DNA of 64,000 bases from Bacteroidia bacterium. GTDB taxonomy: Bacteria > Bacteroidota > Bacteroidia > Flavobacteriales_D > Cryomorphaceae. The DNA lies in assembly GCA_030427905.1 (NCBI GenBank), contig JAUICL010000006.1, positions 62,001-126,000 of the forward strand, given 5' to 3'. The notes beneath the pieces are model-generated. The model had not been told where the DNA came from. It saw only the letters and a program-made list of their open reading frames with translations, and searched no databases. Below, in pieces: positions 13,160-39,307 of this stretch; the stretch's first letter is position 1, and the number at the start of each line of letters is the position of its first letter. The translations under genes were made by a program, and so were the position numbers.

Positions 13160-14515
13160 TCACCCAATCCTCACCATCTCAGAAATCAATTCCTGAAGCT
13201 CGGGCTTGATCTGTGTGCTAAACTCGGTCTTTAGAGAAGATAGCTGATTGTCAAATTCTTTCTGTGACAAGCGTACCTCGCGATATGAAGCGCCCAACAT
13301 AAGGATAGATAGGTAGGGGAGAAGGCCAGATTTTCGCTCTTGCTCCACCAGTTTGTACTTCCGTTCGATCTTCATCATCCGCTCTGTTTCATTGGCTTGA
13401 AGCAAGGCGAAAAAGAATATTCGGAAAAAGTAGTTCCAATGGTGCTGCATGATCTGCTTGCCTATTTCATCCAGAAAGCGATCGGCCATGCGGACACTTC
13501 GTTTGAACTGCCCCAAGCGATTTAGACACCTGCAATAGTTGGCCATAAAGATCACTCTCCTGCCTTTACTCCGCGTTGATTTAAACACGTGCATCGACTC
13601 GTTCATGTTTGCGATTGCCGTCTCGCATCGATTCAAATGCACCAATACGCTGCTATAGTTGTTGAGGTAGTAGAGAAAATCTTCCGTAAAGTGCTTAATC
13701 GATTGGCGTCCGCAGAAGGCTGCTTCCTCGTAACGCTTCTGATAATTGAGCAAGAGAAGTTTGTTGGCGTAGAAATTCGAGAGAATCCGGGGTGAGTAAA
13801 ACTCCCCGCTGAAAATGGCCTTTTCGAGTACTTCCATGGGCTCTATTACCCGATCTATCTTCTTTCTGTCGATGTGGTACATCATAAACGACACCAAGGC
13901 ACTGTACCTGTTCTTTTTGCTCAAACTAGCATCGTAAAAAATGTCTAGTAGCCATTGCAAATCGGACTCTAGGTCTGCTGATTTTTCACCAAACACGATC
14001 TTGTCGGTAATCGAGTTGATCTTTTCGGTGGTTTGAAGGTTGTGCAAATAGATCTCCCGGTGCTGATTTAAGAAATCTCTAACAGATTTGACATCCTTTT
14101 CGCGATAGCGCCTGACTAGGTACTCATCAAATTTCTCCACCAGCCTATAAAAGCTACCCATGTGATACCAGCCGGGCTCAAACATTTCAATTTCACGAAT
14201 GATTCTCGTTTGCTCTTGCGGCGGAATGGCGTCAGTATTGATCAAGTAATTTGAACGGCTAATCCACTCGTAATAGGTGTCCACATCTACCTTGGCAAGC
14301 TTGTGCTTGATGCTGTTCTGCAGTTTCGAATACTTTCGTGGATCGATCTTGTCGTCAAAATCGCGCTGGGCATTTTCACTGCAGACACGTGCTTCAGCCA
14401 CGGTCAAAATTTCTAGAAGCTCTCCGTCACGATAGTCATTGTGCGACTTCACATAGGCTATTTCCGAAGGAAACAACCCATCGATAAAAGCGGTGAATTT
14501 CTTGAGCTTGGCCAT
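13160..14515 (-). CDS. Cytoplasmic helical-repeat (TPR-like) protein of unknown function
   Basis: 451 residues, almost entirely predicted alpha-helix, no signal peptide or membrane segment. Residues ~240-400 have a TPR-like rhythm (YANKLLLLNYQKRYEEAAFCGRQSI, YNNYSSVLVHLNRCETAIANM), with a basic N-terminal half. No enzymatic motif is visible. It starts 9 bases after the stop of the exported hydrolase gene and is probably the last gene of the minus-strand operon, though its role need not be related. I do not recognise a named family. Confidence 0.7.
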   Translation of the reverse strand: MAKLKKFTAFIDGLFPSEIAYVKSHNDYRDGELLEILTVAEARVCSENAQRDFDDKIDPRKYSKLQNSIKHKLAKVDVDTYYEWISRSNYLINTDAIPPQEQTRIIREIEMFEPGWYHMGSFYRLVEKFDEYLVRRYREKDVKSVRDFLNQHREIYLHNLQTTEKINSITDKIVFGEKSADLESDLQWLLDIFYDASLSKKNRYSALVSFMMYHIDRKKIDRVIEPMEVLEKAIFSGEFYSPRILSNFYANKLLLLNYQKRYEEAAFCGRQSIKHFTEDFLYYLNNYSSVLVHLNRCETAIANMNESMHVFKSTRSKGRRVIFMANYCRCLNRLGQFKRSVRMADRFLDEIGKQIMQHHWNYFFRIFFFALLQANETERMMKIERKYKLVEQERKSGLLPYLSILMLGASYREVRLSQKEFDNQLSSLKTEFSTQIKPELQELISEMVRIG

Positions 14516-14524
14516 ATCTACAGG

Positions 14525-15487
14525 CTAATCTACCGAAAGAAATTTCAGTATTTCAGCATTTACTTCGCTGGCTTTTTCAAAAGATACAAAGTGTCCGGCT
14601 TTCGGGATGATCACTGCTTTGGCATTTGGAATCATTTGAGCTCCGAGCTCGGCTAAATCTTTTGGAAATCCACCGTGCATGTATCTGTTTGGGATCAAAG
14701 CATCGGCCTTTCCCATGATGATAATCGTTGGTTGGGTGATCTTCGATAGGTCTCTGAATACTGGTTCATCGACCATACCTGAAACGCATTTTTCGATAAC
14801 ATTGCAATACCAATAGAACTCTTCTCCAGCACCAGTGATGGCGTACCGATCGCTGATCATAAAGAAGGCATCTCTCGGCATTTTGTAAAAGTTGTGCCCC
14901 AGATTGGACTCCATAGATTCCAATGTGGTCAGCATTACACCTTTGGCGGTAATTCCTTCGCGAAACCATTCTTTCTCACCCTCCGAAAAAGTCTCGATTC
15001 CAGCCGGGGCGATCAAAACGAGCTTTTTAACGAGTTCAGGATATTTTAAGGAAGCTACGATCGAAATTTGTCCACCCATGGAATGTCCACATAGAATGAC
15101 CTGATCAATTCCGAGCGAGTCGGTAAACTCCTTTACTATATCGGCGTAAAAAGTCATGGAGCCTTTGTAGTTTCCCTTTGATGACATACCATATCCAGGT
15201 AAGTCAATGGCGATACAGCGATAGCTTTTCTTCAGCTCTTCGATGTTTTTCATCCATGCCTTGGAATAACTACCCAAACCGTGAATAAAAAGGATGGTTT
15301 CGTCGCCTGCACCTTCATCCATATAGCCCACGGTAATTTGGTTGCTTACATCTTGGTGCTTTACCGGGTAGGGGTACTCAATGTCGCTAAATCGCTCAAC
15401 TTTCTTCAAGTCTTTGTAAAAGCCTTGGCCGATCAGCGAAGTAGAGACAAAGCATAGAAATGCGATATGTAGAATAGAATACTTCAT
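14525..15487 (-). CDS. Exported alpha/beta hydrolase
   Basis: Start set at the ATG at 15487 (320 residues), two bases after the porin-like gene ends; an upstream in-frame GTG-type start would overlap that gene. A signal peptide is visible (cleavage near SLIGQG). Fold landmarks are the oxyanion loop FIHGLGSYSKAW (68-79), nucleophile elbow CGHSMGG (S136), an acid in MGKADALIP and a His in KAGHFVSFE. It belongs to the broad epoxide-hydrolase/esterase/lactonase group. Being periplasmic or surface-located and directly downstream of a porin, it could hydrolyse an ester before or during uptake. Confidence 0.88.
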   Translation of the reverse strand: MKYSILHIAFLCFVSTSLIGQGFYKDLKKVERFSDIEYPYPVKHQDVSNQITVGYMDEGAGDETILFIHGLGSYSKAWMKNIEELKKSYRCIAIDLPGYGMSSKGNYKGSMTFYADIVKEFTDSLGIDQVILCGHSMGGQISIVASLKYPELVKKLVLIAPAGIETFSEGEKEWFREGITAKGVMLTTLESMESNLGHNFYKMPRDAFFMISDRYAITGAGEEFYWYCNVIEKCVSGMVDEPVFRDLSKITQPTIIIMGKADALIPNRYMHGGFPKDLAELGAQMIPNAKAVIIPKAGHFVSFEKASEVNAEILKFLSVD

Positions 15488-15489
15488 AA

Positions 15490-17094
15490 TTAAAACATGA
15501 GCCATTTAAATGCAATGTATAACAACCATGGGTCGACAGGTCTGGCGTTCAGCCGATCGTCAGCATCGACAAACTCATCACCATTTGCTTTTGGAGCATC
15601 GTAGAAGTCACCAAGTGCTACGCGAGCACCGCGTACTTCTACCTCCATCAGAGTTTTGATCTTCCAGATGACTCCAATGTTGAGCTCTGTACCAATTTCA
15701 GTTCCGCCACGTGGTAGTGAAGCGTTCGACATAGCGTAAGCTACATTGGCTGTACCGATAAATTTGTGTGGAACAATGGCCTTTTTAACTTGGAAGTTGA
15801 CCGCGTTGAGTCCGGCTCCCAGATTCGAAATGTCGCTAATCAGCGGCATATAGCGGTTTACTACATTTCCAGAAGGAAAGAGAATGTTTGGACCTACGGC
15901 TATAGGTAAATTCCCAGGTGCACCCCACGTGTTACCCGTGATTACTCCGTTGTATTCTCCATCCGTAATTCCGTTGTCGTCACCAGTGGTGTAAATCCAG
16001 TCCACTATCACTTCATCGTCTTCAGTATTTCCATGACGGAAGCCGTATTTGAGATTCGCTCCGAACCCACTTATTTTTGTGACGCGGGCAGTTTCGCCTT
16101 GAATATCTCCAACGTTGTAATTGAAGAAACCCGATAGCTTATGTCGGTTATAAGCGTATTCTCGGTTGTAATCAAAAAATGCTCCGAGCCATGTTACATT
16201 GGTTTCGTAGTCGGTATCGGGGAAGCTAAATCGGTAGGCTCCCGTATAATCCGTCAGAAGGCTTTTCGGTCCTTGTCCAAGTATAGATGCTCCACCCTGT
16301 CCGTTCGATTTATCATTGATGTGGTATACGGAACCTCCAATGCTTAATTGCGGAACGAGTTTGTACATCCCCATCACTTTTCCGAGCCAAACGTCGTCTT
16401 CTAGCTCAATGCGGTTTTCCCATAGATTGTATATCCCCGCAGAGATGTTTCCGCGCGAAAAATCTTTTCGAACATTTATACCCGCGGCATCACCCGCCCA
16501 ATACATCAGGCGAAAACCTGTTTCGGTCAGTTGTTTTACTGATGTGCGATAGGGGTGGTAAGGGGAGTCGAAGGCGCGGAGCAAACCGAAATTTATGGCC
16601 CAACCATGCGCAGGGACTATTTCGAGCTCCACGTTTTGAGTTTGAATGTTGACAAAGTCCCCATTAAACCCGGCTCCCTGGTTTCCACCAGAACCATAGG
16701 ACGCATCACCCCAGGTCCAGTCTATCTCAAAAGATGCTCGGAGGGTAACTTTACCATCCATGAGTTTGGGTGTGTAGAGAAAGAAAGGGAGAAAACGCTG
16801 TTCTACAAAGCCAGTTCGAAGTGTGTCGCTGGTGCGAGCTGTACTTCGGCCAAACATTCTACCGATAACCTGCCCTTGAAAGAATTCATTTCGCGGAAAG
16901 TAGTTTGAAGTGACTCCTTGTGTAAAGAACCAACCGATAAAAGTGAGTTCCTTTCCCGATTTGATCGGGACTTCCTGGTTGAAGTAGTAGGAGTTTTCGC
17001 CGCTGATTGTATCTGCAGGAGCAGGCGAGTATTGAGCCATTATCGTTCCGTAGGAGAAACCGATGATGGCAATTAGGTAGAGTTTGAGCCGCAT
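15490..17094 (-). CDS. Outer-membrane porin-like beta-barrel (alginate-export-like)
   Basis: 534 residues with a signal peptide (cleavage after IMAQ). The mature part is alternating beta-strands with Gly- and Asp-rich turns (GFNGDF, TTGDDNGITDG) and ends WLMF with a terminal Phe, as expected for a barrel inserted by BAM. The overall pattern resembles alginate-export/porin families of Bacteroidota. It lies between a lipoprotein gene and an exported hydrolase in the minus-strand operon, so substrate passage across the outer membrane is the likely role. A hairpin precedes it. Confidence 0.75.
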   Translation of the reverse strand: MRLKLYLIAIIGFSYGTIMAQYSPAPADTISGENSYYFNQEVPIKSGKELTFIGWFFTQGVTSNYFPRNEFFQGQVIGRMFGRSTARTSDTLRTGFVEQRFLPFFLYTPKLMDGKVTLRASFEIDWTWGDASYGSGGNQGAGFNGDFVNIQTQNVELEIVPAHGWAINFGLLRAFDSPYHPYRTSVKQLTETGFRLMYWAGDAAGINVRKDFSRGNISAGIYNLWENRIELEDDVWLGKVMGMYKLVPQLSIGGSVYHINDKSNGQGGASILGQGPKSLLTDYTGAYRFSFPDTDYETNVTWLGAFFDYNREYAYNRHKLSGFFNYNVGDIQGETARVTKISGFGANLKYGFRHGNTEDDEVIVDWIYTTGDDNGITDGEYNGVITGNTWGAPGNLPIAVGPNILFPSGNVVNRYMPLISDISNLGAGLNAVNFQVKKAIVPHKFIGTANVAYAMSNASLPRGGTEIGTELNIGVIWKIKTLMEVEVRGARVALGDFYDAPKANGDEFVDADDRLNARPVDPWLLYIAFKWLMF

Positions 17095-17109
17095 AGGTAT
17101 GGGAATTGA

Positions 17110-17144
17110 GAAATGGGTATGAATGACGAATTCATACCCATTTC
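17110..17144. terminator. Strong intercistronic hairpin within the operon
   Basis: A perfect 15-bp stem (17110-17124 with 17130-17144, stem GAAATGGGTATGAAT, 5-base loop) lies between the FN3 lipoprotein and porin genes. On the minus strand no T-run follows, so it may stabilise upstream mRNA or attenuate rather than fully terminate. The label is tentative. Confidence 0.5.
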
Positions 17145-17156
17145 AGTTTTAAGCCG

Positions 17157-17921
17157 TTATTGACGCGAATACTTCTGGATGTTTGTTTCTCCAAAAGCTC
17201 CACCTGAAGTAGATCCAAATCCATCTTCTACCGTAGGAGGCGTTACCCCAGTAATCGCAGGGTCGGTTTGCGCTACTTCGTACCACATAGAGTCAGGAGA
17301 TGCTACGTAAACTGCAAAAATTCCTTCTGAAGTCAAGGTCGCAGGGCTTGATTGGTCGAGGATGATATAGTAAATGCCATCAGCGTTAGCTTCACCATCT
17401 ACGGTGTAAGTTCCGTCAAGTTGAGTCTCAGCTCCATCCGATTCTGATACAACCGTGTACGTTTGGTCTGCTCTAAACTCAGCCGTGATTCCTGTAATAC
17501 CAAGACCTGCCAATAGAGGAGAAACGTCGTATGCTTCCCAGCTACCTACTATTGGATTGGGTGTAGAGCTAGTAATAGCAGAAGAGTAACCACTGCTCGT
17601 ACCATCAGAACAATTTGTTCGCACGTAAAAGTCGTAATCAGTATCCGCTTCGAGTCCCATTACCGTGTAAGGGTTAGACGTTGCTTCTACCGTGGTTCCA
17701 CTTCCTTGTGAAAACCCTTGCTCACCGTATTCGATTGTCCAGTTATCACCTGTTGAACTCCAGGAAAGGGTTACTGATGTCGACTCGGAGTCATCTACGA
17801 TTACATCAGTAGGAGTGGGACAAGTGCTTTGGCTGTCATCACTATCGTCGTCGTCGCTACATCCTGTAAAAACGAGTCCTAGGCTCAAAAGTCCTAAAAA
17901 GTAAAATTTAGACATTTTCAT
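17157..17921 (-). CDS. Fibronectin-III-domain lipoprotein
   Basis: Start chosen at 17921 (254 residues), giving a clean lipoprotein signal with lipobox VFTGC (Cys21) followed by an acidic DDDDSDD linker. The start overlaps the end of the upstream ligase gene by 14 bases. Residues ~33-115 are a fibronectin type III domain (SVTLSWSSTGDNWTIEYGE, YTVMGLEADTDYDFYVRT). The rest (~120-254) looks like a small lipocalin-like beta domain (VGSWEAYDVS, FRADQTYTVVS). It is probably a surface-exposed or periplasmic binding lipoprotein paired with the porin that follows, by analogy with other uptake loci. Confidence 0.78.
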   Translation of the reverse strand: MKMSKFYFLGLLSLGLVFTGCSDDDDSDDSQSTCPTPTDVIVDDSESTSVTLSWSSTGDNWTIEYGEQGFSQGSGTTVEATSNPYTVMGLEADTDYDFYVRTNCSDGTSSGYSSAITSSTPNPIVGSWEAYDVSPLLAGLGITGITAEFRADQTYTVVSESDGAETQLDGTYTVDGEANADGIYYIILDQSSPATLTSEGIFAVYVASPDSMWYEVAQTDPAITGVTPPTVEDGFGSTSGGAFGETNIQKYSRQ

Positions 17922-19407
17922 GATTGTTGGGTTTATGTGTATTAGTGAAAAAATCCAGGAGCGCTCTTTTATTGATCTTTCCGGCGTCATTGACGGGCAG
18001 CTTTTCTTCAAAAAAGATATACCTGGGTACTTTGAATTTTGCTAAATATTCTCTTCCGTATTGGATTATTTCTTCTGCTGTTTGAGTTCGTCCAGAGTGG
18101 AGCACCACATAGCCAGCTCCCGTTTCGCCCCACTTTTCATCGGGTACGCCTATAATAGCCACCTCCGAAATGTCGGGGTGATTTTGAAGTACTTGCTCCA
18201 CTTCGCGCGGATACACATTCTCTCCTCCGCTGATATACATTTCCTTTTTGCGACCAGCTACGTAGATGTAGCCATCTTCATCTCGCTGAACCAGGTCGCC
18301 AGTTTTAAACCATTCCCCATCAAAGGATGACTGATTTGCGGCTTCATTGTGCCAATAGCCTGGTGTCACGTTAGGACCACTTAGCCAGAGTTCTCCCACT
18401 TCATTTGGACCGCATTCTGTTCCATCGTCGTGTACCACTTTTCCATCGATGTAGAAATTGAAAAATCCTATGGATCCACGCTTTTTGATGGCGTCGTCTT
18501 GGTGGAGTGATGTGACGTTTGGCCCTACTTCGGTGAGTCCGTATCCCTGACGGATTGGCAATCCTTTTTCGGCCCAGTACTCAATGGTCGGAATTGGAAG
18601 TGCTTCACCACCCACGATGATATACCTAATGCTCTTCAGGTTCACATGGTCGATGGATTTCGTGTCAGACATGAGCTTGAGCATCGTCGGCACAGCCATA
18701 AATAGGGTGGAGCGACTCTTTTCCAATTGCAATAAAAAGTCGTCGGGATCAAAATCGTTGGTAAGCCACACTGATGCCCCATGGTGAAGGAAAGGCGTGA
18801 TAAGCACATTCCACCCACCGGTGTGAAACGATGGCATGCAATTTACCGTGATGTCATTCGAGTTGATATCTAGCCGCAGTTCGGTATTGATGCTGTTCCA
18901 GTAAAGCATCTTGTGGGTGTAGATCACACCTTTTGGTTTGCCTGTAGTTCCTGATGAGTACAGGATGAAAATGGGATCGTTTTCGGAAATGTCCGACTCA
19001 ATATGAATAGTAGTTTCAGATGCCAATGCGTCCCAATTCACTGTTGGGGCTGTCACATCTTCCACAAGGTGACTGAACTCCTCCTGAGAAATCACGAGTC
19101 TGGCGCCGCAATCTTCTACCTGGAAGTTTATTTCGTGTTTGGTGAGTCTCGTGTTGAGTGGAACTATGACAAATCCCAGTTTTTGCGCCGCGCTAAACAG
19201 CGCAATAAAAGCCGTGTTAAATCCCGAAAGAACGACGATGCGATCTCCCTTTTCGATATCGAATCGCTCGCGCAGCGCATGAGCAGTTTGACATGCCATG
19301 GTGTTGAGTTGGGCGTAGCTTGTTTTCTTTTCGCTCCACGTCTCTACAATGGCTGTTTTATTGGGTGAGTAATGGGCCCATTTCGAAATCCAATCTAGTC
19401 CGTTCAT
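17908..19407 (-). CDS. AMP-forming acyl-CoA synthetase-like enzyme (ANL superfamily)
   Basis: 499 residues. Adenylation motifs are complete: P-loop YSSGTTGKPKG (150-160), QGYGLTEVG, the TGD block (WFKTGDLV), the hinge region GRKKEMYISGGENVYPREVE, and the C-terminal catalytic Lys in DAGKINKRAL. It should activate a carboxylic acid as acyl-AMP and transfer it to CoA. The size and motifs fit medium/long-chain or aryl acid ligases; substrate not readable. The ATG overlaps the symporter stop by 4 bases (ATGA), so translation is probably coupled to that transporter. Confidence 0.9.
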   Translation of the reverse strand: MNGLDWISKWAHYSPNKTAIVETWSEKKTSYAQLNTMACQTAHALRERFDIEKGDRIVVLSGFNTAFIALFSAAQKLGFVIVPLNTRLTKHEINFQVEDCGARLVISQEEFSHLVEDVTAPTVNWDALASETTIHIESDISENDPIFILYSSGTTGKPKGVIYTHKMLYWNSINTELRLDINSNDITVNCMPSFHTGGWNVLITPFLHHGASVWLTNDFDPDDFLLQLEKSRSTLFMAVPTMLKLMSDTKSIDHVNLKSIRYIIVGGEALPIPTIEYWAEKGLPIRQGYGLTEVGPNVTSLHQDDAIKKRGSIGFFNFYIDGKVVHDDGTECGPNEVGELWLSGPNVTPGYWHNEAANQSSFDGEWFKTGDLVQRDEDGYIYVAGRKKEMYISGGENVYPREVEQVLQNHPDISEVAIIGVPDEKWGETGAGYVVLHSGRTQTAEEIIQYGREYLAKFKVPRYIFFEEKLPVNDAGKINKRALLDFFTNTHKPNNHENV

Positions 19408-20924
19408 ACTTCTGAAGATACTGATGAAAATGAAACGGAATCCGGCTTTCGGATTAGTAGAATGGTCGTACCTACCACCACCGATGCTAGGATGGCATAA
19501 GTGGATGCAACGGCAGGATTGTTTACAGCGCCTTGCATGTACGGGCCGATATTGCCGTAATACACACCAAAGTGAACGAGAATAGCAACCACTGAACTCG
19601 CAATGGCGGCGTAAGCATTGGTTTTCTTTGAAAACATGCCCATCACCAATGGGAAAAACGCGGCACTAAAGAAGGCGTAGACTCCATTTTGAGCAAAAAT
19701 GGCTACGCTAAGATCAGGATTAGTGATTTGTCGGGCTGAAAGAATGATGGTAACCACGCCGAGAACGGCGATCAACATGCGGTTCAAAATGATCTTTTTT
19801 CGATTCGGTAAGTCGGCTAGCTTTTTAGAGTTTGCCATGAGAAGGTCGGATGTGAATGTCACAGAAAGACTCTGTATCAGGCCCTCGAGTGTGCTTATTC
19901 CTGCAGCAATCAAGCCAAGGGTTACAAAGAGACCCATGCCAATATTGAAGCGTTCTATAATGTAGCTGGACACCAGTTGATCGGGTTTGATCGCATTTCC
20001 ATTCGCCTGCATTTCCGGAAACGTAATTCGGGCATACAGCCCGACAATCACGACTAGGAAAAAAATAATCATGGTGGCAATCCCTGTGAGAAGAAAGCGG
20101 TTGACTTCGGACTCTTTTTTTAAGATGAGCGATTTCGTGATAATGTGCGGTTGGCAAACTACGGCGATTCCAATGACGATCTGGCAGAACACAATTTCGA
20201 AGTAATCGCGGTACAAGAAGCTTCCTGGGTTAGTAGGTTGAGTGAGTGAAGGGTCGATATTGGTCAGAATAGCCGTGAATCCATCAATACCCTCGGCAAA
20301 GAACGATCGGCCTGAATATAGAAGTATGAGTGCCACGGCGAGCATGAGCAATGCCTGAATGGTGTTGGTGTAGATCAAGGAATTGGCTCCTCCAAACATC
20401 ATATATCCAAAAACGAAAATGACGATGCCAATCATAACGTATATCGGGTCTGCCTGCAAGGGCGGCGCAAGGAGCTGAGCCAAACCAACTACAATCAATA
20501 CGATGAAGGTGATTAGAAGAGCCGATATTATTGCAAACCCTGTGGCATAGCCTTTTGTTTGATATCTATTGCCCATCCATTGCGCCATGGTTAGGGCCTT
20601 CACACGTGTGCCATGATCCCTAAATCTTTTGGTCAGCACAATTAATGAGATGAAAGCAGCGATGGGCATCACCAAAGCGTAGGCAATGACTCCCGAATAG
20701 CCGTAAAGCCCAATCAAGCCAGGGTTGATAATAAATGTAGCGGCGCTGGTCATACTTGCCGCGAGTGCCAGACCCACAGCTACCGGCGAGAAGGCTAGAC
20801 TACCTAAGGCGTAATCTTCAATATTGGCCGTTTTCTTCGCCCCTCTGAATACCATGAGCAAGATGACAAACATCAACACGAAAAGCATCGCGGCAGTGGG
20901 CCATATGTTTCCGGTTTCTTCCAC
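19404..20924 (-). CDS. Sodium:solute symporter, monocarboxylate-like
   Basis: 506 residues with about 13 membrane helices. The SSS-family core is present: AASMTSAATFIINPG in the first core helices, FGGANSLIYTNTIQ, and ITKSLILKK. Overall it is closest in feel to acetate/monocarboxylate members (ActP-like), but this is a judgement by eye. It starts with GTG directly after the upstream TAG. Its place beside an acyl-CoA ligase and a hydrolase suggests uptake of the acid that the ligase activates. Confidence 0.88.
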   Translation of the reverse strand: MEETGNIWPTAAMLFVLMFVILLMVFRGAKKTANIEDYALGSLAFSPVAVGLALAASMTSAATFIINPGLIGLYGYSGVIAYALVMPIAAFISLIVLTKRFRDHGTRVKALTMAQWMGNRYQTKGYATGFAIISALLITFIVLIVVGLAQLLAPPLQADPIYVMIGIVIFVFGYMMFGGANSLIYTNTIQALLMLAVALILLYSGRSFFAEGIDGFTAILTNIDPSLTQPTNPGSFLYRDYFEIVFCQIVIGIAVVCQPHIITKSLILKKESEVNRFLLTGIATMIIFFLVVIVGLYARITFPEMQANGNAIKPDQLVSSYIIERFNIGMGLFVTLGLIAAGISTLEGLIQSLSVTFTSDLLMANSKKLADLPNRKKIILNRMLIAVLGVVTIILSARQITNPDLSVAIFAQNGVYAFFSAAFFPLVMGMFSKKTNAYAAIASSVVAILVHFGVYYGNIGPYMQGAVNNPAVASTYAILASVVVGTTILLIRKPDSVSFSSVSSEV

Positions 20925-21956
20925 CTATTCTAAGATCGATAAAAGTTCGTTTATAAACCTGTCGTGTTCTTCGATGTATGGCGTGTGACCTGCATTTTCG
21001 AAAACGACTTCCTTGTACTTATTGCCGTTTTGGCCGTAGTGTTCTAGGCAGTATCTCGTTTGGTCTACCATGGGCTGTGGAGGGCAGATCTCTTCGCCAG
21101 GGTAGTTTGGTATGGCTCCCATTTTTCCGAGCACAGCTGTGTCAAAAAGGGATTCGTTACTCACAATTTTGTCTTTTGCTCCCCTTATCCAGAGAATTTC
21201 AGGTCCATTTTCGATAGCACTCAGCTTCGCGAGAATTTCTCGCTTCGTAGTTGGAGATGCCGAGTTGATCGCCCCTTTCTTTCCTGGGCATGTGAATGGA
21301 TAATTCTCTGAAGGTGTGAAATCGCCGGGGTAGAAAGAGTCACCTGTTTGAATCCGCAAGAGTCCTTCGAGAAGCTCCATAACGTTTGCCGGTACGAAAG
21401 GCGGCTCCCAATAAAAGGCATTCATAATATTGAGCGGGCTCGCCTGGTGATCTGTTGATCTGTCTTCTTGCTCAATGAGCTTGACAAAATCGGGGTTGAT
21501 GGTTCCACCACCACTTCCTTCGCCGTCTGCAAAGGTAAGCGTACCCTTGATGTCTTTGGTGCCACCAAATCCGAATGGAGATGCTGGATTGACTTGGGTC
21601 ATACTTTTAATTCTGTGAGCGTCCTTGATCAGTAGCTCCCATCCAATTCCACCGCCCAGCGAATGAGCTACGACGTGGTAGGACTCAATGCCAAGGGCTT
21701 CTACCAAACCCAATATATCGTCCACAAAATCGTCGTAGCTCTTCGTACTATCTACCAATGCTGGTTCGGTGTGGCCATAGCCGCGTAGGTCCGGGGCTAT
21801 AGCGGTATATTTTGCCGGAAGGGCTTTTATAACTTCGGTCCAGAACACGCTATCCGAAGCGTTTCCATGAATAAAAAGCACATGGTTTTTTCCACCATCT
21901 CTGAATCTGAAATGTTGAGAAATGCCATTGGCCTTTATTTGTTTTTCAATAATCAT
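20925..21956 (-). CDS. Cytoplasmic alpha/beta hydrolase
   Basis: Start at the ATG at 21956, sharing one base with the stop of the KAS III-like gene (343 residues; a TTG one codon earlier is less likely). Landmarks are FIHGNASDS (28-36), DLRGYG, nucleophile elbow VAHSLGG (S99), acid in GAKDKIVS and His in ENAGHTPYIEE. There is no signal peptide. A longer cap (residues ~125-230, with a Gly-rich GEGSGGG loop) sets it apart from simple lipases. It could be a thioesterase-, C-C- or lactone-type hydrolase acting on the product of the adjacent thiolase-fold enzyme. Confidence 0.85.
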   Translation of the reverse strand: MIIEKQIKANGISQHFRFRDGGKNHVLFIHGNASDSVFWTEVIKALPAKYTAIAPDLRGYGHTEPALVDSTKSYDDFVDDILGLVEALGIESYHVVAHSLGGGIGWELLIKDAHRIKSMTQVNPASPFGFGGTKDIKGTLTFADGEGSGGGTINPDFVKLIEQEDRSTDHQASPLNIMNAFYWEPPFVPANVMELLEGLLRIQTGDSFYPGDFTPSENYPFTCPGKKGAINSASPTTKREILAKLSAIENGPEILWIRGAKDKIVSNESLFDTAVLGKMGAIPNYPGEEICPPQPMVDQTRYCLEHYGQNGNKYKEVVFENAGHTPYIEEHDRFINELLSILE

Positions 21957-22948
21957 CAATACTTGAATAGGGCACCCGCGAAAGCCAACCCTCCGCCTGA
22001 GCCAATGAATATGATGTAATCTCCTCGTTTGATTTTACCAGCTTTATTTGCTTGATCTAAAGCCATGGGGATACATGCTGAACCCGTGTAGCCGTAATGG
22101 TGCATCACATATTCCGCTCTATCATGGTCAACCCCAACGATATCGAGGGTCTCGTAAATGGCGTTGATGTTGATCTGGGTGATAAAATACCGACTGATAT
22201 CTTTTGGGTTGATTGAAGCCTTTTCGCAGAGTTCTTTGATCAATCTCGACCAGGTCTCTGGATTCAATTCCTTTGGAAACTTGTGTACAAATTGAAGCAA
22301 GTGAGTCTTTTCGGCGAGTACTTTATCTGAAATCGGTTCATGGGCACCGCCTGAGTATATCCCCATCCAGTCGGCGTATTCTCCTTTGGTTTCCAAGGCG
22401 GATGCGAGCATTCCCGATTCACCATTGTTTGCTTTCAAAATAGCTGCTCCGGCACCATCGGCAAAAAGCGTTACCGTCTTTTTATCAGCCATGTTCAGGT
22501 ACTTCGACATGTTGTATGCGCCGATTACCAAAATGGTCTTGTATTGCGGGTCGGACTGGATATACTTGGTTCCCATATCCAAAGCGGTTACAAACCCGGC
22601 ACACGCGGTATTGATGTCGAAAGTCCCGGCATTGACTGCTCCAAGGCGGTGTTGCACCACCGATGCGGTAGATGGAGATACGTATTCGGGCGTATCAGTC
22701 GAGATGATGATCAGATCCAATTCTTCGGCCCCTACACCAGCGTCGGACATTGCTACGCGGGCTGCTTTTTCTGCTAAATCTGCTGTTGATTCATCATCAC
22801 CAGTCCATCTACGTTCGTAGATCTTCACGTTCTCGCTCAACCAGGTGTCTACATCTTCTCCGAGTAGTTCGTTGAAATAGGAGTTGGGGACAATTTTTTC
22901 GGGGACGTACATTCCCGTTCCCGCTATTTGGGCATTTCTATTGCTCAT
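21956..22948 (-). CDS. KAS III-like (thiolase-fold) enzyme with altered catalytic residues
   Basis: 330 residues, full-length FabH-like. The nucleophile is kept: NTACAGF with Cys116. In FabH the other two catalytic residues are His in PHQAN and Asn in GNTSAAS. Here those sites read ITQIN (Thr258) and YGYTGSA (Tyr287), so both appear replaced. The Gly-rich C-terminal GSGGGLAFAGAL is normal. Decarboxylative condensation by the classical mechanism is therefore doubtful; acyl transfer or condensation with an unusual partner is more likely. It sits 6 bases after the SDR gene and overlaps the hydrolase gene by one base. Confidence 0.85.
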   Translation of the reverse strand: MSNRNAQIAGTGMYVPEKIVPNSYFNELLGEDVDTWLSENVKIYERRWTGDDESTADLAEKAARVAMSDAGVGAEELDLIIISTDTPEYVSPSTASVVQHRLGAVNAGTFDINTACAGFVTALDMGTKYIQSDPQYKTILVIGAYNMSKYLNMADKKTVTLFADGAGAAILKANNGESGMLASALETKGEYADWMGIYSGGAHEPISDKVLAEKTHLLQFVHKFPKELNPETWSRLIKELCEKASINPKDISRYFITQININAIYETLDIVGVDHDRAEYVMHHYGYTGSACIPMALDQANKAGKIKRGDYIIFIGSGGGLAFAGALFKY

Positions 22949-22954
22949 TCAGTT

Positions 22955-23695
22955 CTAGAGTTTTAATCCGCCATCCACGCTGAGCACGGTACCGGTAATA
23001 AACGATGCTTTATCTGATGCCAAAAACACATAGGCATTCGCTATGTCTGCTGGCTTCCCGAGTCTGCCGAGTGGAGTGTTTCCCGTCAGGGCGTCAATCA
23101 CTTTCTCTGGAACAGTCTTAATCATATCGGTTTCAATAAAGCCCGGAGCTACGGCGTTTACGGTGATCCCATGTCGCCCGAGCTCTTTGGCCCAAACCTT
23201 AGCAAGCCCAATAACGCCTGTCTTTGTAGCGACGTAATTGCTTTGTCCGAAGTTTCCGTTGTGAGCGACTACTGATGAAGTGTTTATGATCCGTCCTGAA
23301 TTGGCTTCGATCATTTTTAGGGCCACGGCTTTTCCACAGTTAAAAACTCCCGTCAGGTTTACGTCAATGACGCTCTGCCAGTCGGCTGGGTCCATTTTCT
23401 TCAGGGTACTGTCGGCGGTAATTCCTGCATTGTTTATCAGGATGTCAATTTTACCGAGTTGTTGAACGGTCTTCTCTGTAGCATCTGCTACGTTTTCGTA
23501 TTTCCGAATATCCACTTCCAGAAAGCTGATCTTCGACCCGAGATCTCCGGCAAGCTTGATGGTTTCATCAGCTTTTTCGCGGTTGATATCCCAAATCATT
23601 ACCTGAGCTCCTTCCTTTACAAAGGCTAGTGTGGTCTCTCGACCTATTCCATTAGCGCCACCTGTGATGATGGCCACCTTGTCTTTTAATTCCAT
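22955..23695 (-). CDS. Short-chain dehydrogenase/reductase, FabG/3-hydroxyacyl dehydrogenase type
   Basis: 246 residues, classical SDR: TGGANGIG (11-18), NNAG (88-91), catalytic Ser in NTSSV (~141), Y154-x-x-x-K158, and a C-terminal SVDGG. Asp36 at the end of the second strand (MIWDINRE) suggests NAD(H) rather than NADP(H), which fits a degradative 3-hydroxyacyl dehydrogenase better than fatty-acid synthesis; this is inference. It is the first gene of the minus-strand operon, and a 9-bp inverted repeat lies about 50 bases before its start. Confidence 0.9.
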   Translation of the reverse strand: MELKDKVAIITGGANGIGRETTLAFVKEGAQVMIWDINREKADETIKLAGDLGSKISFLEVDIRKYENVADATEKTVQQLGKIDILINNAGITADSTLKKMDPADWQSVIDVNLTGVFNCGKAVALKMIEANSGRIINTSSVVAHNGNFGQSNYVATKTGVIGLAKVWAKELGRHGITVNAVAPGFIETDMIKTVPEKVIDALTGNTPLGRLGKPADIANAYVFLASDKASFITGTVLSVDGGLKL

Positions 23696-24557: not shown

Positions 24558-25985
24558 ATGGAGATACACATCATAGATCTATCCATATTTCTCGTTTATC
24601 TCCTATTCATGCTCGGAATAGGGTTTTACTTTTTTAGTCGAAACAAATCCCAGGACGACTACTTTGTAGGCGGACGCAAAATGACCGCGGGTCATATCGG
24701 GCTCTCGGTAGTGGCCACCGATGTTGGTGGTGGTTTTTCAGTCGGGCTCGGTGGGCTGGGCTTTGCCATGGGGCTTTCGGGGAGCTGGCTCCTTTTTTCG
24801 GGATTGATAGGCGCTTGGATAAGCGCCGTTTTTTTAATCCCTCGAGTGTACGATCTGGCTAAGAAGCACAACTTTCTGACTTTCCCCGAATTCCTTTCAT
24901 TCCATTACAGCAAGAAGGTGGCTCTCGCAGCGGGAATCATATCGCTGATTGGGTATATCGGCTTTTCGAGTTCCCAGATTTTGGCTGGAGCCAAGTTGGC
25001 TTCGGCTACCTTTCACGGTATTTCGGTCCACCATGCAGCCCTAATTATGGGTGTTATCGCGGTGGTGTACACAGTGATCGGGGGAATTAAAGCGGTAATC
25101 TACACGGATACCATCCAGTGGATTATCCTGATGGTGGGGCTGGTGTTTATTGGGATTCCCATTGCCCACATCAAGCTGGGTGGTTGGGAAGCGATTCGTG
25201 CCAGTATCCCCGCTGAAATGCTCTCCCTTTCGAACATCACGTTTACGCAGTTCTTCAATTGGGTGATCACCATTGTACCCATTTGGTTTGTCGGGATGAC
25301 GCTCTACCAGCGTATCTACGCGTGCCGCGATGTGAAAACCGCTAAGCGCGCCTGGCGTATCGCCGGTCTTTTTGAATGGCCCGTGATGGCCTTTATGGGT
25401 GTGGCGCTGGGTATGTACGCCAAGGTGGCGCTACAGCAAGGTCGCTTTGCCGATATAGGCTACTTGCCGGGTGGAACGATGGATGCCGAGCTTGGTTTAC
25501 CCCTCCTGCTGGTCAATATCTTGCCAATCGGACTCATGGGACTGATGATGTCGGCCTACTTTTCGGCCATCATGTCTACAGCCGATAGTTGCTTGATGGC
25601 CGCATCGGGAAACTTGAGCGAAGATGTCATTGGCTTCTTTCGAAAGAACAAATCCCGAAACCCAATTCGCGAATCGCAACTTTGGACCCTGCTGATCGGC
25701 GTATTGGCCATTGCACTAGCTACAGTTATGCAAAACGTCCTCGACTTGATGCTCTATTCATACGCGTTCATGGTATCGGGTTTGCTCGTGCCCGTCTTGG
25801 GCACCTTGATCTGTACGAAACCATCTTCACGGGCCGCCTTGTCGTCAATGATCATTGGCGGGGGAACAACGCTGACATTGATCGCCTGGGGCATTGATTT
25901 GCCGTTTGGACTTGATGCTAATTTCTTTGGAATCACAGCCTCATCCATCGTTTTTGCTATACTTCAAAAAATAGATTCGAAATGA
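24558..25985 (+). CDS. Sodium:solute symporter (SSS family)
   Basis: 475 residues, about 13 membrane helices. Recognisable features are DDYFVGGRKM at the N-terminus, ATDVGGGFSVGLGG in helix 2, SSSQILAGAKLAS and a sodium-site-like SAIMSTADSCLMAASG in helix 9. Its closest resemblance is to proline/solute symporters rather than to the acetate type of the neighbouring operon. It overlaps the next gene by 4 bases (ATGA). Probable substrate: an amino acid or acylated amino acid, by context only. Confidence 0.88.
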   Translation: MEIHIIDLSIFLVYLLFMLGIGFYFFSRNKSQDDYFVGGRKMTAGHIGLSVVATDVGGGFSVGLGGLGFAMGLSGSWLLFSGLIGAWISAVFLIPRVYDLAKKHNFLTFPEFLSFHYSKKVALAAGIISLIGYIGFSSSQILAGAKLASATFHGISVHHAALIMGVIAVVYTVIGGIKAVIYTDTIQWIILMVGLVFIGIPIAHIKLGGWEAIRASIPAEMLSLSNITFTQFFNWVITIVPIWFVGMTLYQRIYACRDVKTAKRAWRIAGLFEWPVMAFMGVALGMYAKVALQQGRFADIGYLPGGTMDAELGLPLLLVNILPIGLMGLMMSAYFSAIMSTADSCLMAASGNLSEDVIGFFRKNKSRNPIRESQLWTLLIGVLAIALATVMQNVLDLMLYSYAFMVSGLLVPVLGTLICTKPSSRAALSSMIIGGGTTLTLIAWGIDLPFGLDANFFGITASSIVFAILQKIDSK

Positions 25986-29485: not shown

Positions 29486-30214
29486 ATGAAAATTCCAACA
29501 ATTGCGGGAATCATAGACAGAAGAATCTTAATCAACTATCAGGTCGATAAAGATGTTCTGGCCAATTATTTGCCTGCTCCTTTTCGTCCGAAACTGGTGA
29601 ATGACAAAGGTGTAGTAGGAATCTGCTTGATTCGCTTGAAGAACATTCGGCCAAAAGGCATGCCTGAAAAACTGGGTGTTTCTTCAGAAAATGGTGCTCA
29701 CCGTATCGCAGTGGAGTGGACAGAAGATGGACGGGTAAAAGAAGGTGTTTTTATTCCGCGCCGTGATACTTCGTCAAAGTTGAATGCGCTTGCGGGTGGG
29801 AGAATTTTTCCCGGAGTTCATCATCATGCTTCTTTTCAAGTTACAGAAGCCGATGGAAGTTATAAAGTAGCGTTTGAAAGTGACGACAACACCTTCCTTT
29901 CGATCACCGCTCAAGAATGTGATGAATGGAATAGCGATAGTGTTTTTGAAAGCCTAGAGTGCGCTTCCGATTTCTTTGAGCAAGGAGCAATTGGATATTC
30001 TCCGAATCATTTGAATGAATCATATGACGGGCTCGAATTGAAAACCATAGAATGGAAAGTGAAACCACTATCCGTTTCGCATGTCCGGTCTAGTTTTTTC
30101 GAAAATGAATCTATATTCCCTAAAGGTTCTGTCAAATTCGATAATGCGCTTCTGATGAAGTCTATTGAGCATGAATGGAAGAGTATAAAGGCAATTGAAA
30201 ACAAAAAACAATGA
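29486..30214 (+). CDS. DUF2071 family protein
   Basis: Start set at the ATG at 29486 (242 residues). The sequence matches DUF2071/YqjF-type proteins: VDKDVLANYLPAPFRPK near the N-terminus, VGICLIRLKNIRPKGMPEKLG, then AVEWTED and VFIPRRDTSS. Function of the family is unknown; it has an acetoacetate-decarboxylase-like fold. No signal peptide. It shares 4 bases (ATGA) with the TPR protein that follows. Confidence 0.85.
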   Translation: MKIPTIAGIIDRRILINYQVDKDVLANYLPAPFRPKLVNDKGVVGICLIRLKNIRPKGMPEKLGVSSENGAHRIAVEWTEDGRVKEGVFIPRRDTSSKLNALAGGRIFPGVHHHASFQVTEADGSYKVAFESDDNTFLSITAQECDEWNSDSVFESLECASDFFEQGAIGYSPNHLNESYDGLELKTIEWKVKPLSVSHVRSSFFENESIFPKGSVKFDNALLMKSIEHEWKSIKAIENKKQ

Positions 30215-31074
30215 AACAACTGACGATACTGTTAATGCTTTTTTTAGGGCTCCAACTGGCTGCTCAGGATGACGTAGATTTTTACCAATTGGGTGGTCAA
30301 TTGGCAAGTGAAGGCAGGTTTGAAGAAGCAATTCTAAATTTTGAAAAAGAGCTTGAAAAAGAGCCGGGTAATTATTTCGCTTGGTTCAATAAGGCACTTT
30401 GTGAGTCATATCTTGGTCGAAATCGGGAGTCTATTAGTGACTTCAGCAAAGCAATAGAACTCAACCCAGAATATCATAAAGCGTATCTCAACCGTGCGTT
30501 GGTAAAGAAGGATATTGCCGATTACGAAGGCGCACTCCTTGATGTAAACAAGTGTTTGGGTATCGTGAGTGATTACCCTGAAGGATTGTTTCACCGGGGG
30601 GTTCTGAATGAGTATTTAATGAAATACGAAGAAGCTTGTGAAGACTTGACGAGAGCTAAACATTTAGGGGTAGAGATTAGAGATCAGATGATCGAAACGG
30701 CATGTTCTGAAGAGAGAGCATCCAATTACGCCAATATTCTAAAGTTAAAGGATCAAGCTGACGACAAGACATACGGTTACTCCGGTGAGAATCCTGTTAA
30801 AGTAGGGACAGGTCTTTTCGGTGGACCATCAAATCAACGTGCCTACCTAAATCTACTCAGAGATTCTCAAGGAATGCCAGTGACCTATGAACGTACTGGG
30901 AGCTGTTGTGATTACAAATCTGAAAATGGGCTTTTTGGAATCGCGAAAACGGATGAGTACGAAGTGACCTATTTGAACAAGAAAGGGAAAAAGAAAAAGG
31001 TAAAACTCTACATTTCATTTTACGACTTTGAAGATCCTAAAGTGCCCGTGGGCTTTAGGACAATTGAAGATTAG
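30211..31074 (+). CDS. Exported TPR protein with a Cys-rich C-terminal domain
   Basis: 287 residues, signal peptide (cleavage near LAAQ). Residues ~25-150 hold about three TPRs (EAILNFEKELEKEPGNYFAWFNKAL, then ESISDFSKAIELNPEYHKAYLNRAL). The C-terminal ~100 residues form a separate conserved Bacteroidota domain: GYSGENPVKVG, GPSNQRAYLNLLR, RTGSCCDYKS, then VTYLNKKGKKKKVKLY. This domain is often found in lipoproteins annotated by an unreliable aldolase name. Role unknown; it sits 4 bases into the DUF2071 gene. Confidence 0.72.
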   Translation: MKQLTILLMLFLGLQLAAQDDVDFYQLGGQLASEGRFEEAILNFEKELEKEPGNYFAWFNKALCESYLGRNRESISDFSKAIELNPEYHKAYLNRALVKKDIADYEGALLDVNKCLGIVSDYPEGLFHRGVLNEYLMKYEEACEDLTRAKHLGVEIRDQMIETACSEERASNYANILKLKDQADDKTYGYSGENPVKVGTGLFGGPSNQRAYLNLLRDSQGMPVTYERTGSCCDYKSENGLFGIAKTDEYEVTYLNKKGKKKKVKLYISFYDFEDPKVPVGFRTIED

Positions 31075-31124
31075 ATTCTCTAGTTCTAGGGTTTAGCTTT
31101 CCCAGATTATTTCTTCAGACCATC

Positions 31125-31601
31125 ATGACTTTAATCCTTGAGGATACAGAACAATTAGAGTTTCAATTGGATTTAATTGAAATTATAGAACCGATCGAAA
31201 ATTTAGTTAAATCTCTTTTTTGGGTTGTGTCTGACCTAGAGTATATGGTGCTTTCAGAAAGTGACAGCCTTTTGATTCCAGAGTTTCGCTCGGATGAACA
31301 ATACATCAAGTTGAAAGGAACCCGGTTAGTTGAAATATTAAAGGAAAATAGAAATCAGTTTGTTTGGGGTGTGTTTTGTGGATCTTTCCATGACCCAGAT
31401 GAGCTTTGCACAGTTCGAATTCCTGTTGCTGACGGAAATGAAAGGATCTGGACTAAGCCTGATGAATTCTTCTTTTCTGATACTGAAATAGAGATCATCT
31501 GCTTCGACAGTTCAGCGACTATTATTCGTTTTAGAAGCCAAGAAATAGAAAAACTGTGGTTAGATAGATTTCCAGATACCAAACAACTCGTTAATCAGTA
31601 A
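31125..31601 (+). CDS. Small cytoplasmic hypothetical protein
   Basis: 158 residues, acidic, no signal peptide or membrane helix. The pattern of alternating short strands and a Trp-rich core (SLFWVVSDLEYMVLSESD, FVWGVFCGSF) resembles SMI1/SUKH-type or immunity-like small folds, but I cannot assign a family. The next gene starts 3 bases after its stop, suggesting co-transcription. Confidence 0.6.
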   Translation: MTLILEDTEQLEFQLDLIEIIEPIENLVKSLFWVVSDLEYMVLSESDSLLIPEFRSDEQYIKLKGTRLVEILKENRNQFVWGVFCGSFHDPDELCTVRIPVADGNERIWTKPDEFFFSDTEIEIICFDSSATIIRFRSQEIEKLWLDRFPDTKQLVNQ

Positions 31602-31604
31602 AGA

Positions 31605-32114
31605 ATGGGAAAATCAAGGTTCTGCTTTATTTTAATTCTGGTATTGGGAATTTTGCCTTCATGTATCACTCCTAGTAGCGATCGACCAAAACAACTGGAT
31701 AAACCTGACATTCAAATTTTAAATGAATTTGGCATAAATGTGAACGGGAGAGTGGTATACCAGTTTTACCAGAAATATGGCTTCACTGATCTGGAAGAAC
31801 AAGTCATTCTAATCATTGAGCCGGATAGCCATTTTGTTTTAGATGCTCACTTACCTTTCGACTCGGTGGATGTTGAAAAAATCAACGTAATCGATATGAG
31901 GAAATTTATTGAAGATGGTCCCATAAACTTTTGGCCGGAAAAACATATCAATGCTGATATAAGACTTGAGTCATTGGAATATGATACACTAGGCGATAAG
32001 TCAGTTTTTCATAGTGTAGGAACGTATAGTATTGTCCAAACAGATTCTGTAGAAACCTTGTATGTACTCGATGAGCAGTCAGGTATGATGTATATTGAAT
32101 CCAAAAGAAACTAG
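31605..32114 (+). CDS. Hypothetical lipoprotein
   Basis: 169 residues with a lipobox LPSC (Cys ~20). The mature part is short beta-strands and charged turns with no recognisable motif. It follows the small hypothetical gene by 3 bases. Likely a periplasmic or outer-membrane lipoprotein of unknown role. Confidence 0.65.
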   Translation: MGKSRFCFILILVLGILPSCITPSSDRPKQLDKPDIQILNEFGINVNGRVVYQFYQKYGFTDLEEQVILIIEPDSHFVLDAHLPFDSVDVEKINVIDMRKFIEDGPINFWPEKHINADIRLESLEYDTLGDKSVFHSVGTYSIVQTDSVETLYVLDEQSGMMYIESKRN

Positions 32115-32134
32115 CTACTCAAAAACATGCAAGC

Positions 32135-32680
32135 ATGGATAAGGAGAGACTAAATGAATTGAGTGAGAAAAGGCGACGACTTCAAGAAGAGATAAAGTTT
32201 AAAGAGAAAAGGGAAGAAGTCGCTAACGAAATTGAGTATCTGGAAGAGATGGGTGAGCCGTTCAAACTTTATTATGTTGCAGAACACTTCAATTGGATTG
32301 TTCAGAACGTCAAGACTCGTAAACGGGATGGATACCGTGGAATTCATGGGGATTTTCAAATTGATGTAGTGGACAGAGAAGCTATCTCTTTTGCTCAAAT
32401 CGAAGACTCAGACTCAGTCCAATTTTCTGAAATTACTCTAGCTCATATTCCAAAAGGTGAGATGCTTGTTGTGTGCCATCAATCAAGGAGTGTTGAGATT
32501 GAGATTTCAGTTCATGCCTTCTTGTCCAAGCCATCTGTATTCTTCTCTACTCCGCAGACATGGGGTCTGGCAATGAATAGACGTTTTATGATTGAGTACC
32601 TGTGGGAACAAGGTGTAATTAGACTGATAAAAATTGATGGATCCACTCCGTCCTTAACCCACTTGTTTGAGATTAATTAA
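32135..32680 (+). CDS. Hypothetical protein with N-terminal coiled coil
   Basis: 181 residues. The first ~45 are a charged helix (LNELSEKRRRLQEEIKFKEK) likely to form a coiled coil; the rest is mixed with several Trp/Tyr and Phe. No signal peptide. It starts 21 bases after the lipoprotein gene and precedes a small membrane protein. Confidence 0.6.
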   Translation: MDKERLNELSEKRRRLQEEIKFKEKREEVANEIEYLEEMGEPFKLYYVAEHFNWIVQNVKTRKRDGYRGIHGDFQIDVVDREAISFAQIEDSDSVQFSEITLAHIPKGEMLVVCHQSRSVEIEISVHAFLSKPSVFFSTPQTWGLAMNRRFMIEYLWEQGVIRLIKIDGSTPSLTHLFEIN

Positions 32681-32717
32681 TCATTCTAATTTTGACGCAT
32701 CTACAGAAGAACACCCC

Positions 32718-32909
32718 ATGAAAAACCCAAAATACGACCTACTCACCATACTCGGAATTACCGCATTCTTGCTTATCACTTATCAATTGGGATGGCTTGA
32801 GAAGTACTACGGATTCGCATTTGTGCCGATGTATGCTTGTTACCAAATCGGGAAGTGGGCACAGCGCCAAACGGAAAAGCCGAAGGAGATGGCAAAGCAA
32901 GTGGAGTAG
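32718..32909 (+). CDS. Small two-helix membrane protein
   Basis: 63 residues from the ATG at 32718 (an earlier start would overlap the previous gene). Two hydrophobic segments at about 7-24 and 30-47 suggest membrane insertion, followed by a basic tail (KWAQRQTEKPKEMAKQ). No family recognised. Confidence 0.55.
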   Translation: MKNPKYDLLTILGITAFLLITYQLGWLEKYYGFAFVPMYACYQIGKWAQRQTEKPKEMAKQVE

Positions 32910-33119
32910 GGTTTGCTTCGGAAATCGCTAGTCATGATTTGATGACCGAATTCAATAGTACGTAGAAAGGTAGATTTCATAAAGTTGAATGATGTTAAGA
33001 GACCACCTTATTGACAAATTAGATATTCACTTTGCCAAATTATTGTTAAGTATTGTAGGTGAATTCCTTTTTACTCTTTGATTTTAGAGTTATATTCAAT
33101 CTTATGGCGCCTTCAACGT

Positions 33120-34619: not shown

Positions 34620-34629
34620 AAATCTTTTT

Positions 34630-39194: not shown

Positions 39195-39244
39195 TTTGTA
39201 AGCATATCACTTTTCTGAGAATTCAGAGAATAATAATTGATAAA

Positions 39245-39290: not shown

Positions 39291-39307
39291 AATAACCAAG
39301 AACGAAT

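Follow-up and report, generated by a model that had tools for sequence, protein, structure and literature searches.

In the 3-ketoacyl-acyl carrier protein synthase III (KAS III) FabH, a nucleophilic cysteine is accompanied by a histidine and an asparagine that serve malonyl decarboxylation, and the KAS III family also has acyltransferases that work without decarboxylation, CerJ among them. Elsewhere in the thiolase fold, the steroid aldolases Sal and Ltp2 have had their standard residues replaced and a tyrosine recruited for carbon-carbon bond cleavage, as reported (PMC12329534). The locus described here is a set of nine genes at positions 13160 to 23695, minus strand, of a 64,000-nucleotide stretch (the window) of a Cryomorphaceae genome (Bacteroidota; assembly GCA_030427905.1, contig JAUICL010000006.1), one of which encodes a KAS III-like enzyme, hereafter the cluster KAS. 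By sequence comparison, the gene set is conserved across several phyla and contains, in the cluster KAS, one enzyme with a rebuilt active site. Our tentative first choice, to which we give somewhat less than an even chance, is that the cluster takes up and degrades a carboxylic acid bound in esters, with short 3-hydroxy acids, for instance 3-hydroxybutyrate and its oligomers, as the likeliest substrates. No named pathway or description of this gene set was found in the literature with narrow queries of open-licence full texts.

The cluster KAS shares with FabH its fold, the Cys116 nucleophile, the GGG motif and both Pfam domains, but it carries threonine (Thr257) and tyrosine (Tyr287) at the sites of the catalytic histidine and asparagine and lies in a transport and catabolic cluster. 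Among the window protein and 128 distinct orthologues, the nucleophile site is Cys in 129/129, Thr stands at the FabH His site in 128 and Ser in the remaining one, and Tyr occupies the FabH Asn site in all 129, whereas the Cys-His-Asn set is kept in 27/27 paralogues from relatives of the same family and order and from the window genome, including both other KAS proteins of the latter. The near-invariant Tyr145, Met195, Tyr198 and Trp233 likewise differ from the paralogues, which are 26-32% identical to the window protein (orthologues, 47-78%). A quick tree split the window protein, the 79 orthologues from complete clusters (defined below) and a Chloroflexota relative from 14 paralogues with a support of 98, or of 90 with a PRK06840-like protein placed among the others. 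The best solved match of the cluster KAS is FabH (1zow, 181 bits); among profiles, the window protein scores 253 bits against PRK09352 (cut-off 249) and 228 bits against TIGR00747 fabH, below that model's cut-off of 292.1. Since the histidine and asparagine are replaced, normal FabH chemistry, and with it a role as a decarboxylating ketosynthase, appears unlikely from the residues, and acyl transfer through Cys116 would be expected, with a retro-Claisen (thiolytic) reaction as our first choice. The replacement parallels that in Sal and Ltp2, which act together with DUF35 partners; the cluster KAS is of the KAS III type. An active site that was replaced and then kept makes the cluster KAS a direct test case for a change of reaction in the thiolase fold.

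At a match threshold of E ≤ 1e-60, the cluster KAS was found in 57 genomes, that of the window included, out of 395 drawn from the phylum (about one in seven), and in 38 of the 171 genera, with a conserved uptake system beside it in the loci inspected. Within the family, orthologues at 76-79% identity occur in four of the seven other genomes searched, the next matches being paralogues at about 30%. A scan of named genomes contributed 80 loci out of 573 confirmed relatives, with carriers, among others, in Lewinella, Neolewinella, Flavilitoribacter, Phaeodactylibacter, Cesiribacter, Nafulsella and Lutibacter and, further afield, in Ignavibacteria, Candidatus Thermochlorobacter, Calditrichota and KSB1; similar gene content surrounds the KAS gene in these last four groups and in Bacteroidota. 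To these were added 58 stretches of at most 20 kb round the KAS gene, from the four family members and 54 further carriers in the phylum sample (all 56 except G067 and G107), giving 138 loci, of which 137 have a labelled KAS and 128 are distinct. A cluster was counted as complete where over 800 bases separate its labelled genes from either end of the locus, as in 79 of the 128 distinct loci; the remaining 49 are short contigs or clusters reaching the edge, including loci with a second KAS gene. Every locus was picked through its KAS gene, so that the conservation figures are conditional on the cluster KAS and do not cover the frequency of the other genes alone. The first-pass annotation of the window had named the absence of homologous gene order elsewhere as one half of what would speak against an uptake and processing route; the order proved to be conserved far beyond the genus, and the recurrence of the same content in 79 complete clusters implies that the arrangement in the window is more than chance.

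The enzymes of the 79 complete clusters comprise the AMP-forming ligase (79), an exported α/β hydrolase termed hydrolase A (72), a short-chain dehydrogenase/reductase (SDR; 70) and a lineage-specific second hydrolase, hydrolase B (9), together with genes for a MarR-like regulator (43) or a tetratricopeptide repeat (TPR)-like protein (22). Taking an outer- and an inner-membrane importer in one gene cluster as the mark of nutrient uptake, we found a porin or a TonB receptor in 79/79 and a sodium:solute symporter (SSS, 67) or a major facilitator superfamily (MFS) transporter (5) in 72/79. Porin and lipoprotein occur in 46 clusters, always the same loci, and the TonB receptor in 35, so that outer-membrane import is assigned to porin and lipoprotein only in 44 clusters, to the TonB receptor only in 33, to both in two (L169, L177) and to neither in none. 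The MarR-like and TPR-like genes are never found together, with 14 complete clusters having neither and no co-occurrence in the 49 incomplete loci either. On the best KAS tree the porin/TonB character requires eight changes and the MarR/TPR character two, and the independent porin/TonB pairs on well-supported branches run nearly always in the expected direction (p 0.125). The strongest case for an uptake system lies in unrelated importers replacing one another at a given step while the enzymes are retained.

In the window, the nine reading frames are intact and follow one another from the SDR to the TPR-like gene with junctions, 5' to 3', of +6, −1 (a TGATG overlap), 0, −4 (ATGA), −14, +62, −16 and +9 bases; all spacings thus lie between −16 and +9 bases except the single 62-base gap between lipoprotein and porin. 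These tight junctions suggest that the nine genes are read as one transcription unit, a single transcript being proposed from the spacing, while pattern scans for promoters and terminators found sites no more numerous than in shuffled sequence. The overlapping minus-strand arrangement and the hairpin-bearing gap before the porin had both been noted in the first-pass annotation and were confirmed here; its gene list covered eight of the nine genes and left unnamed the TPR-like one, which recurs in the clusters of other genomes. Enzyme classes were confirmed by Pfam and NCBIfam, in which the porin and the TPR-like protein had no family match. The features are, in order of transcription:

22955..23695, minus strand: SDR, a FabG-type short-chain dehydrogenase with the NAD-type acidic residue D36 (PF13561/PF00106; NF004198 at 301 bits, cut-off 296)
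21956..22948, minus strand: KAS III-like enzyme (cluster KAS), Cys116 kept, His replaced by Thr257 and Asn by Tyr287 (PF08545/PF08541)
22601..22603, minus strand: codon of Cys116, nucleophile site of the cluster KAS (residue alignment)
22178..22180, minus strand: codon of Thr257, FabH His site of the cluster KAS (residue alignment)
22088..22090, minus strand: codon of Tyr287, FabH Asn site of the cluster KAS (residue alignment)
20925..21956, minus strand: hydrolase B, cytoplasmic α/β hydrolase with a TGATG start (PF00561; best NCBIfam match NF050089 at 90 bits, cut-off 300)
19404..20924, minus strand: sodium:solute symporter (PF00474)
17908..19407, minus strand: AMP-forming acyl-CoA ligase (PF00501 and PF13193; nearest solved structures 8weu and 8wev)
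17157..17921, minus strand: lipoprotein, Cys21 followed by SDDDD, with FN3 and a conserved, tentatively lipocalin-like C-terminal domain (PF00041; homologue alignment)
17110..17144, minus strand: 15-bp hairpin in the lipoprotein/porin gap (−20.7 kcal/mol)
15490..17094, minus strand: outer-membrane β-barrel of predicted AlgE-like fold (AlphaFold2 model and Foldseek)
14525..15505, minus strand: hydrolase A, exported α/β hydrolase with a hydrophobic N-terminus (PF00561)
13160..14515, minus strand: TPR-like protein (no Pfam, NCBIfam or PADLOC match)

Hydrolase B probably starts at the ATG at 21956 rather than at a TTG. Of 105 homologues of hydrolase A, 82 likewise have a hydrophobic N-terminus according to a simple pattern.

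From these parts we infer the order and direction of the steps, the substrate and the reaction of the cluster KAS. The lipoprotein and the AlgE-like barrel, or elsewhere the TonB receptor, would carry the substrate across the outer membrane, and the exported hydrolase A would cleave the ester; the sodium symporter, or elsewhere the MFS transporter, would import the acid, and the AMP-forming ligase would convert it to the acyl-CoA. The SDR, already termed NAD-type in the first-pass annotation, would then oxidize a 3-hydroxyacyl-CoA to the 3-oxoacyl-CoA, a direction favored by its NAD-type acidic residue D36, which is present in all 111 ungapped rows of a 112-row alignment. Finally, the cluster KAS, which is devoid of the His/Asn decarboxylation pair, would use its cysteine for acyl transfer, probably in a thiolytic cleavage to acetyl-CoA units. 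Clustered accessory genes of β-oxidation type support this scheme, namely thiolases of more than one subfamily (13/79 complete clusters, 27/128 loci) and MaoC (3/79 complete clusters, 4/128 loci). A relative on the Chloroflexota plasmid CP069395.1 (L186) points the same way: the KAS encoded there is 39.6% identical, has the same Thr and Tyr replacements and is accompanied by a FabG-type SDR, a Thiolase_C_1-type thiolase, an α/β hydrolase, a DUF35 protein, a small DUF5640-like protein (below cut-off) and ABC importer genes, with a CoA transferase standing in for the ligase, so that activation and transport by other families round the same SDR and KAS support catabolism of a CoA thioester. The plasmid search with the KAS also matched Streptomyces and other plasmids besides this one. 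The proposal in its boldest form, plausible in our view while falling short of an even chance, is that the KAS III fold turned once into a catabolic Cys-Thr-Tyr enzyme that cleaves or transfers 3-oxoacyl groups, and that this enzyme defines an undescribed uptake and degradation pathway of Bacteroidota, Ignavibacteria, Chlorobi-related bacteria, Calditrichota and some Chloroflexota.

The first-pass annotation had compared the set with olefin and β-lactone clusters, a likeness that extends to the enzyme classes and no further. A biosynthetic cluster of this type, or a polyketide-type one, would account for the KAS III fold, the α/β hydrolase, the ligase and the SDR, all of which the Ole cluster also has as classes, but it is highly improbable in view of the details. 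Solved chains that we take to be OleA match the cluster KAS in one segment only, about residues 30-134, at roughly 70-75 bits, versus 181 bits for FabH, and the cluster KAS has no Cys-His-Asn set. OleD is an extended SDR, whereas the cluster SDR is a 246-residue protein of the short FabG type, and importers at both the outer and the inner membrane, with exchangeable families, form part of the set. Membership in the Ole/β-lactone group was rejected on the grounds of the partial OleA-like matches and the replaced catalytic residues. The family PRK06840 (NF005308) is another point of comparison, as it too pairs a KAS III-like protein with a neighbouring CoA ligase, but the window KAS reaches only 166 bits against it and has other residues at the two sites. 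No protein of the window genome exceeded the PRK06840 cut-off. A second KAS III-like gene stands in the cluster at 6/128 loci (L050, L052, L057, L059, L060 and L101); of these, the L050 protein is a PRK06840 member (463 bits, cut-off 315), and similarity to this protein was the basis for labelling the remaining five. A plasmid search with the PRK06840-like second KAS returned two haloarchaeal records.

Several observations weigh against catabolism of a hydroxy acid ester as set out above. A true thiolase (a Thiolase_C protein) is present in 60/61 genomes with the cluster KAS; together with the thiolases inside 13/79 clusters, this would make thiolysis by the cluster KAS redundant there, and the enzyme need not be a thiolase. 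The candidate of the cluster KAS as the hosts' sole thiolase-fold carbon-carbon enzyme was ruled out on the same 60/61 count. Hydrolases A and B score 106 and 90 bits, respectively, against the intracellular polyhydroxyalkanoate (PHA) depolymerase model NF050089, the cut-off of which is 300, and an SDR is lacking from nine of the 79 clusters and a labelled inner-membrane importer from seven. The exchange of outer-membrane parts is also less clean than the complete clusters suggest, as porin and TonB-receptor labels occur together in 3/49 incomplete loci (L052, L079, L097); the Fisher values for the exclusions are tiny but ignore kinship, and on well-supported branches only four independent porin/TonB pairs are left (p 0.125). 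Further points against concern the depolymerase-family genes: NF050058, the model for type 1 extracellular short-chain PHA depolymerases, was not matched over cut-off by any of the at most six candidates scored per genome in 50 of the 57 genomes with the cluster KAS, that of the window included; the solved structures closest to the depolymerase-like protein of one Lutibacter locus (L119) are those of an esterase of the poly(3-hydroxybutyrate) depolymerase family, a feruloyl esterase and an acetylxylan esterase, so that the PHA-depolymerase name is no proof; and the SDR and thiolase of the scanned Lutibacter locus belong to other subfamilies.

The abundance of thiolases, along with the retention of the cysteine and the replacement of the decarboxylation pair, would also suit an acyltransferase that moves the acyl group from acyl-CoA to acyl carrier protein or to a hydroxyl group, feeding the imported acid into product or lipid synthesis as salvage rather than burning it. 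We regard this as rather unlikely, given the NAD-type SDR residue, more usual for oxidation, and the thiolases inside some clusters. Among unlabelled neighbours of at least 90 residues, moreover, no product-forming gene recurs in at least four loci, a screen in which shorter carrier proteins would be missed.

Degradation of poly(3-hydroxybutyrate) offers a close counterpart to the catabolic reading, as it likewise combines a hydrolase, a transporter, CoA activation, a FabG-type SDR and a thiolase, and a depolymerase-family gene is linked to the cluster in four loci. It differs in that the cluster contains a KAS III-like enzyme, for which we know of no place in that pathway, and in that no NF050058 depolymerase was found in the window genome. 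The four loci (L119, L125, L127, L149; all Flavobacteriaceae) carry the one informative family to come out of the screen of recurrent unlabelled neighbours, a protein of 320-324 residues that adjoins the SDR of an SDR-ligase-KAS-thiolase-SSS-hydrolase-TonB set (L127 ends inside the thiolase). PF10503 was matched by all three of the four proteins scanned, and NF050058 by both proteins scanned, at 270 and 278 bits (cut-off 150). Across the phylum sample, NF050058 was exceeded in 7/57 genomes with the cluster KAS versus 10/338 others (p 0.006, kinship ignored) and PF10503 was matched in 4/57 versus 5/338 (p 0.028, kinship ignored), in searches that scored at most six or seven candidates per genome (at most six for NF050058) and with the three samples of 395 taken as the same genomes since their visible handles agree. 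An obligatory tie to an extracellular poly(3-hydroxybutyrate) depolymerase was ruled out, since among the at most six or seven candidates scored per genome none exceeded NF050058 in 50/57 and none matched PF10503 in 53/57 of these genomes. The linkage lends modest support to PHA-like hydroxy acids as substrates, and if the substrate were indeed a hydroxy acid of bioplastic-like polyesters, the cluster would explain how bacteria that have no depolymerase could live on the breakdown products. An anecdotal link is given by Lewinella cohaerens, the genome of which carries the cluster (L136): in a biofilm on poly(3-hydroxybutyrate-co-3-hydroxyhexanoate) (PHBH) film, one minor member had this species as its closest relative (PMC5877338). 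A '3-oxoacyl-ACP synthase' in a Bacillus cereus poly(3-hydroxybutyrate) proteome is PhaB of the phaRBC operon (PMC7236355).

A different ester-linked acid, such as a hydroxycinnamate or a terpenoid or branched acid, might be catabolised instead, with the 3-oxo intermediate cleaved by the cluster KAS or by a thiolase of the Thiolase_C_1 type (SCPx-like, in our own labelling); we consider this unlikely, if worth serious weight. Such a substrate would fit the nearest solved structures of the ligase, a 'fatty-acyl-CoA synthase' (8weu) and a 'feruloyl-CoA synthetase' (8wev), the relationship of the L119 esterase to feruloyl and acetylxylan esterases, the Thiolase_C_1-type thiolases of the Lutibacter and Chloroflexota loci, and the resemblance of the MFS transporter to organic-acid permeases, which it matches at scores far below their cut-offs. 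Hydroxycinnamates are made less likely by the scarcity of MaoC hydratase in complete clusters and by the window genome, in which the intradiol dioxygenase family PF00775 was not found (other ring-cleavage families were not searched); the window cluster itself has no MaoC, crotonase-type hydratases not having been searched genome-wide. A shared aromatic diet would, in addition, not be obvious for the Ignavibacteria, Thermochlorobacter and KSB1 hosts. The earlier claim of a complete but nameless route for an acid or ester thus stands as regards a coherent path through outer membrane, inner membrane and cytoplasm, borne out by conserved content and importer exchange, with a tentative class of substrate.

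The outer-membrane parts recall SusCD-type loci, with which they share a lipoprotein with an acidic stretch after its cysteine and an adjoining outer-membrane barrel, but the barrel of the window is AlgE-like and not TonB-dependent. Its AlphaFold2 model (pLDDT 78.6) has AlgE as best Foldseek match (E 2.8e-16, query-normalised TM-score about 0.5), followed by MOMP and, lower, by Occ/OprD and other channels. At least two acidic residues occur among the five after the lipobox cysteine in 51 of 63 lipoprotein rows with a pattern-found lipobox, a stretch that resembles the surface-export signal of Bacteroidota; the lipoprotein is probably surface-exposed. Its description as an FN3 lipoprotein holds insofar as PF00041, the only Pfam match of the window protein, is present, but FN3 is secondary: in the alignment it varies or is absent, and conservation lies in the last 120 or so residues. 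This C-terminal domain may tentatively be called lipocalin-like, as L078, a homologue with repeats of the domain, exceeds the Lipocalin_4 cut-off (24.9 against 22.4 bits), though the other two homologues scanned, L101 and L075, fall below it; the 50 matches listed for the lipoprotein model against the PDB were all FN3-type, with none for this domain.

In the gap between lipoprotein and porin, a stem of at least eight pairs was found in 59 of 64 gaps folded (loci L044-L180) versus 25-31 of 64 in five shuffles. The hairpin is kept in position and not in sequence, the stem sequences being unrelated and several, though not that of the window, having a T run, so that some resemble terminators; the hairpin may govern how much lipoprotein is made relative to porin. 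The TPR-like family, for which a profile search of the PDB returned weak CheA/TPR matches only, is possibly a new type of sensor or regulator.

Elsewhere in the window, a second symporter-like gene (24558-25985, plus strand) lies across a divergent gap from the operon and is followed by amidohydrolase-like and alanine-racemase-like genes, as read from their translations. The stretch from 30000 to 42000 has a G+C content of 0.32-0.40, against roughly 0.41-0.50 elsewhere, and encodes a β-lactamase-fold protein (33120-34661), an AraC-type regulator (34630-35460), a 1039-residue protein in which receptor L domains are combined with a Por secretion tail (36075-39194), a 596-residue protein that weakly matches LuxR/sigma-like families (39308-41098) and a TonB receptor starting at 41827. 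At gathering thresholds, Rfam gives a single match in the window, a DUF805 RNA (RF03081) at 44573-44642 on the plus strand, which scores 67.2 bits against a gathering score of 51.1.

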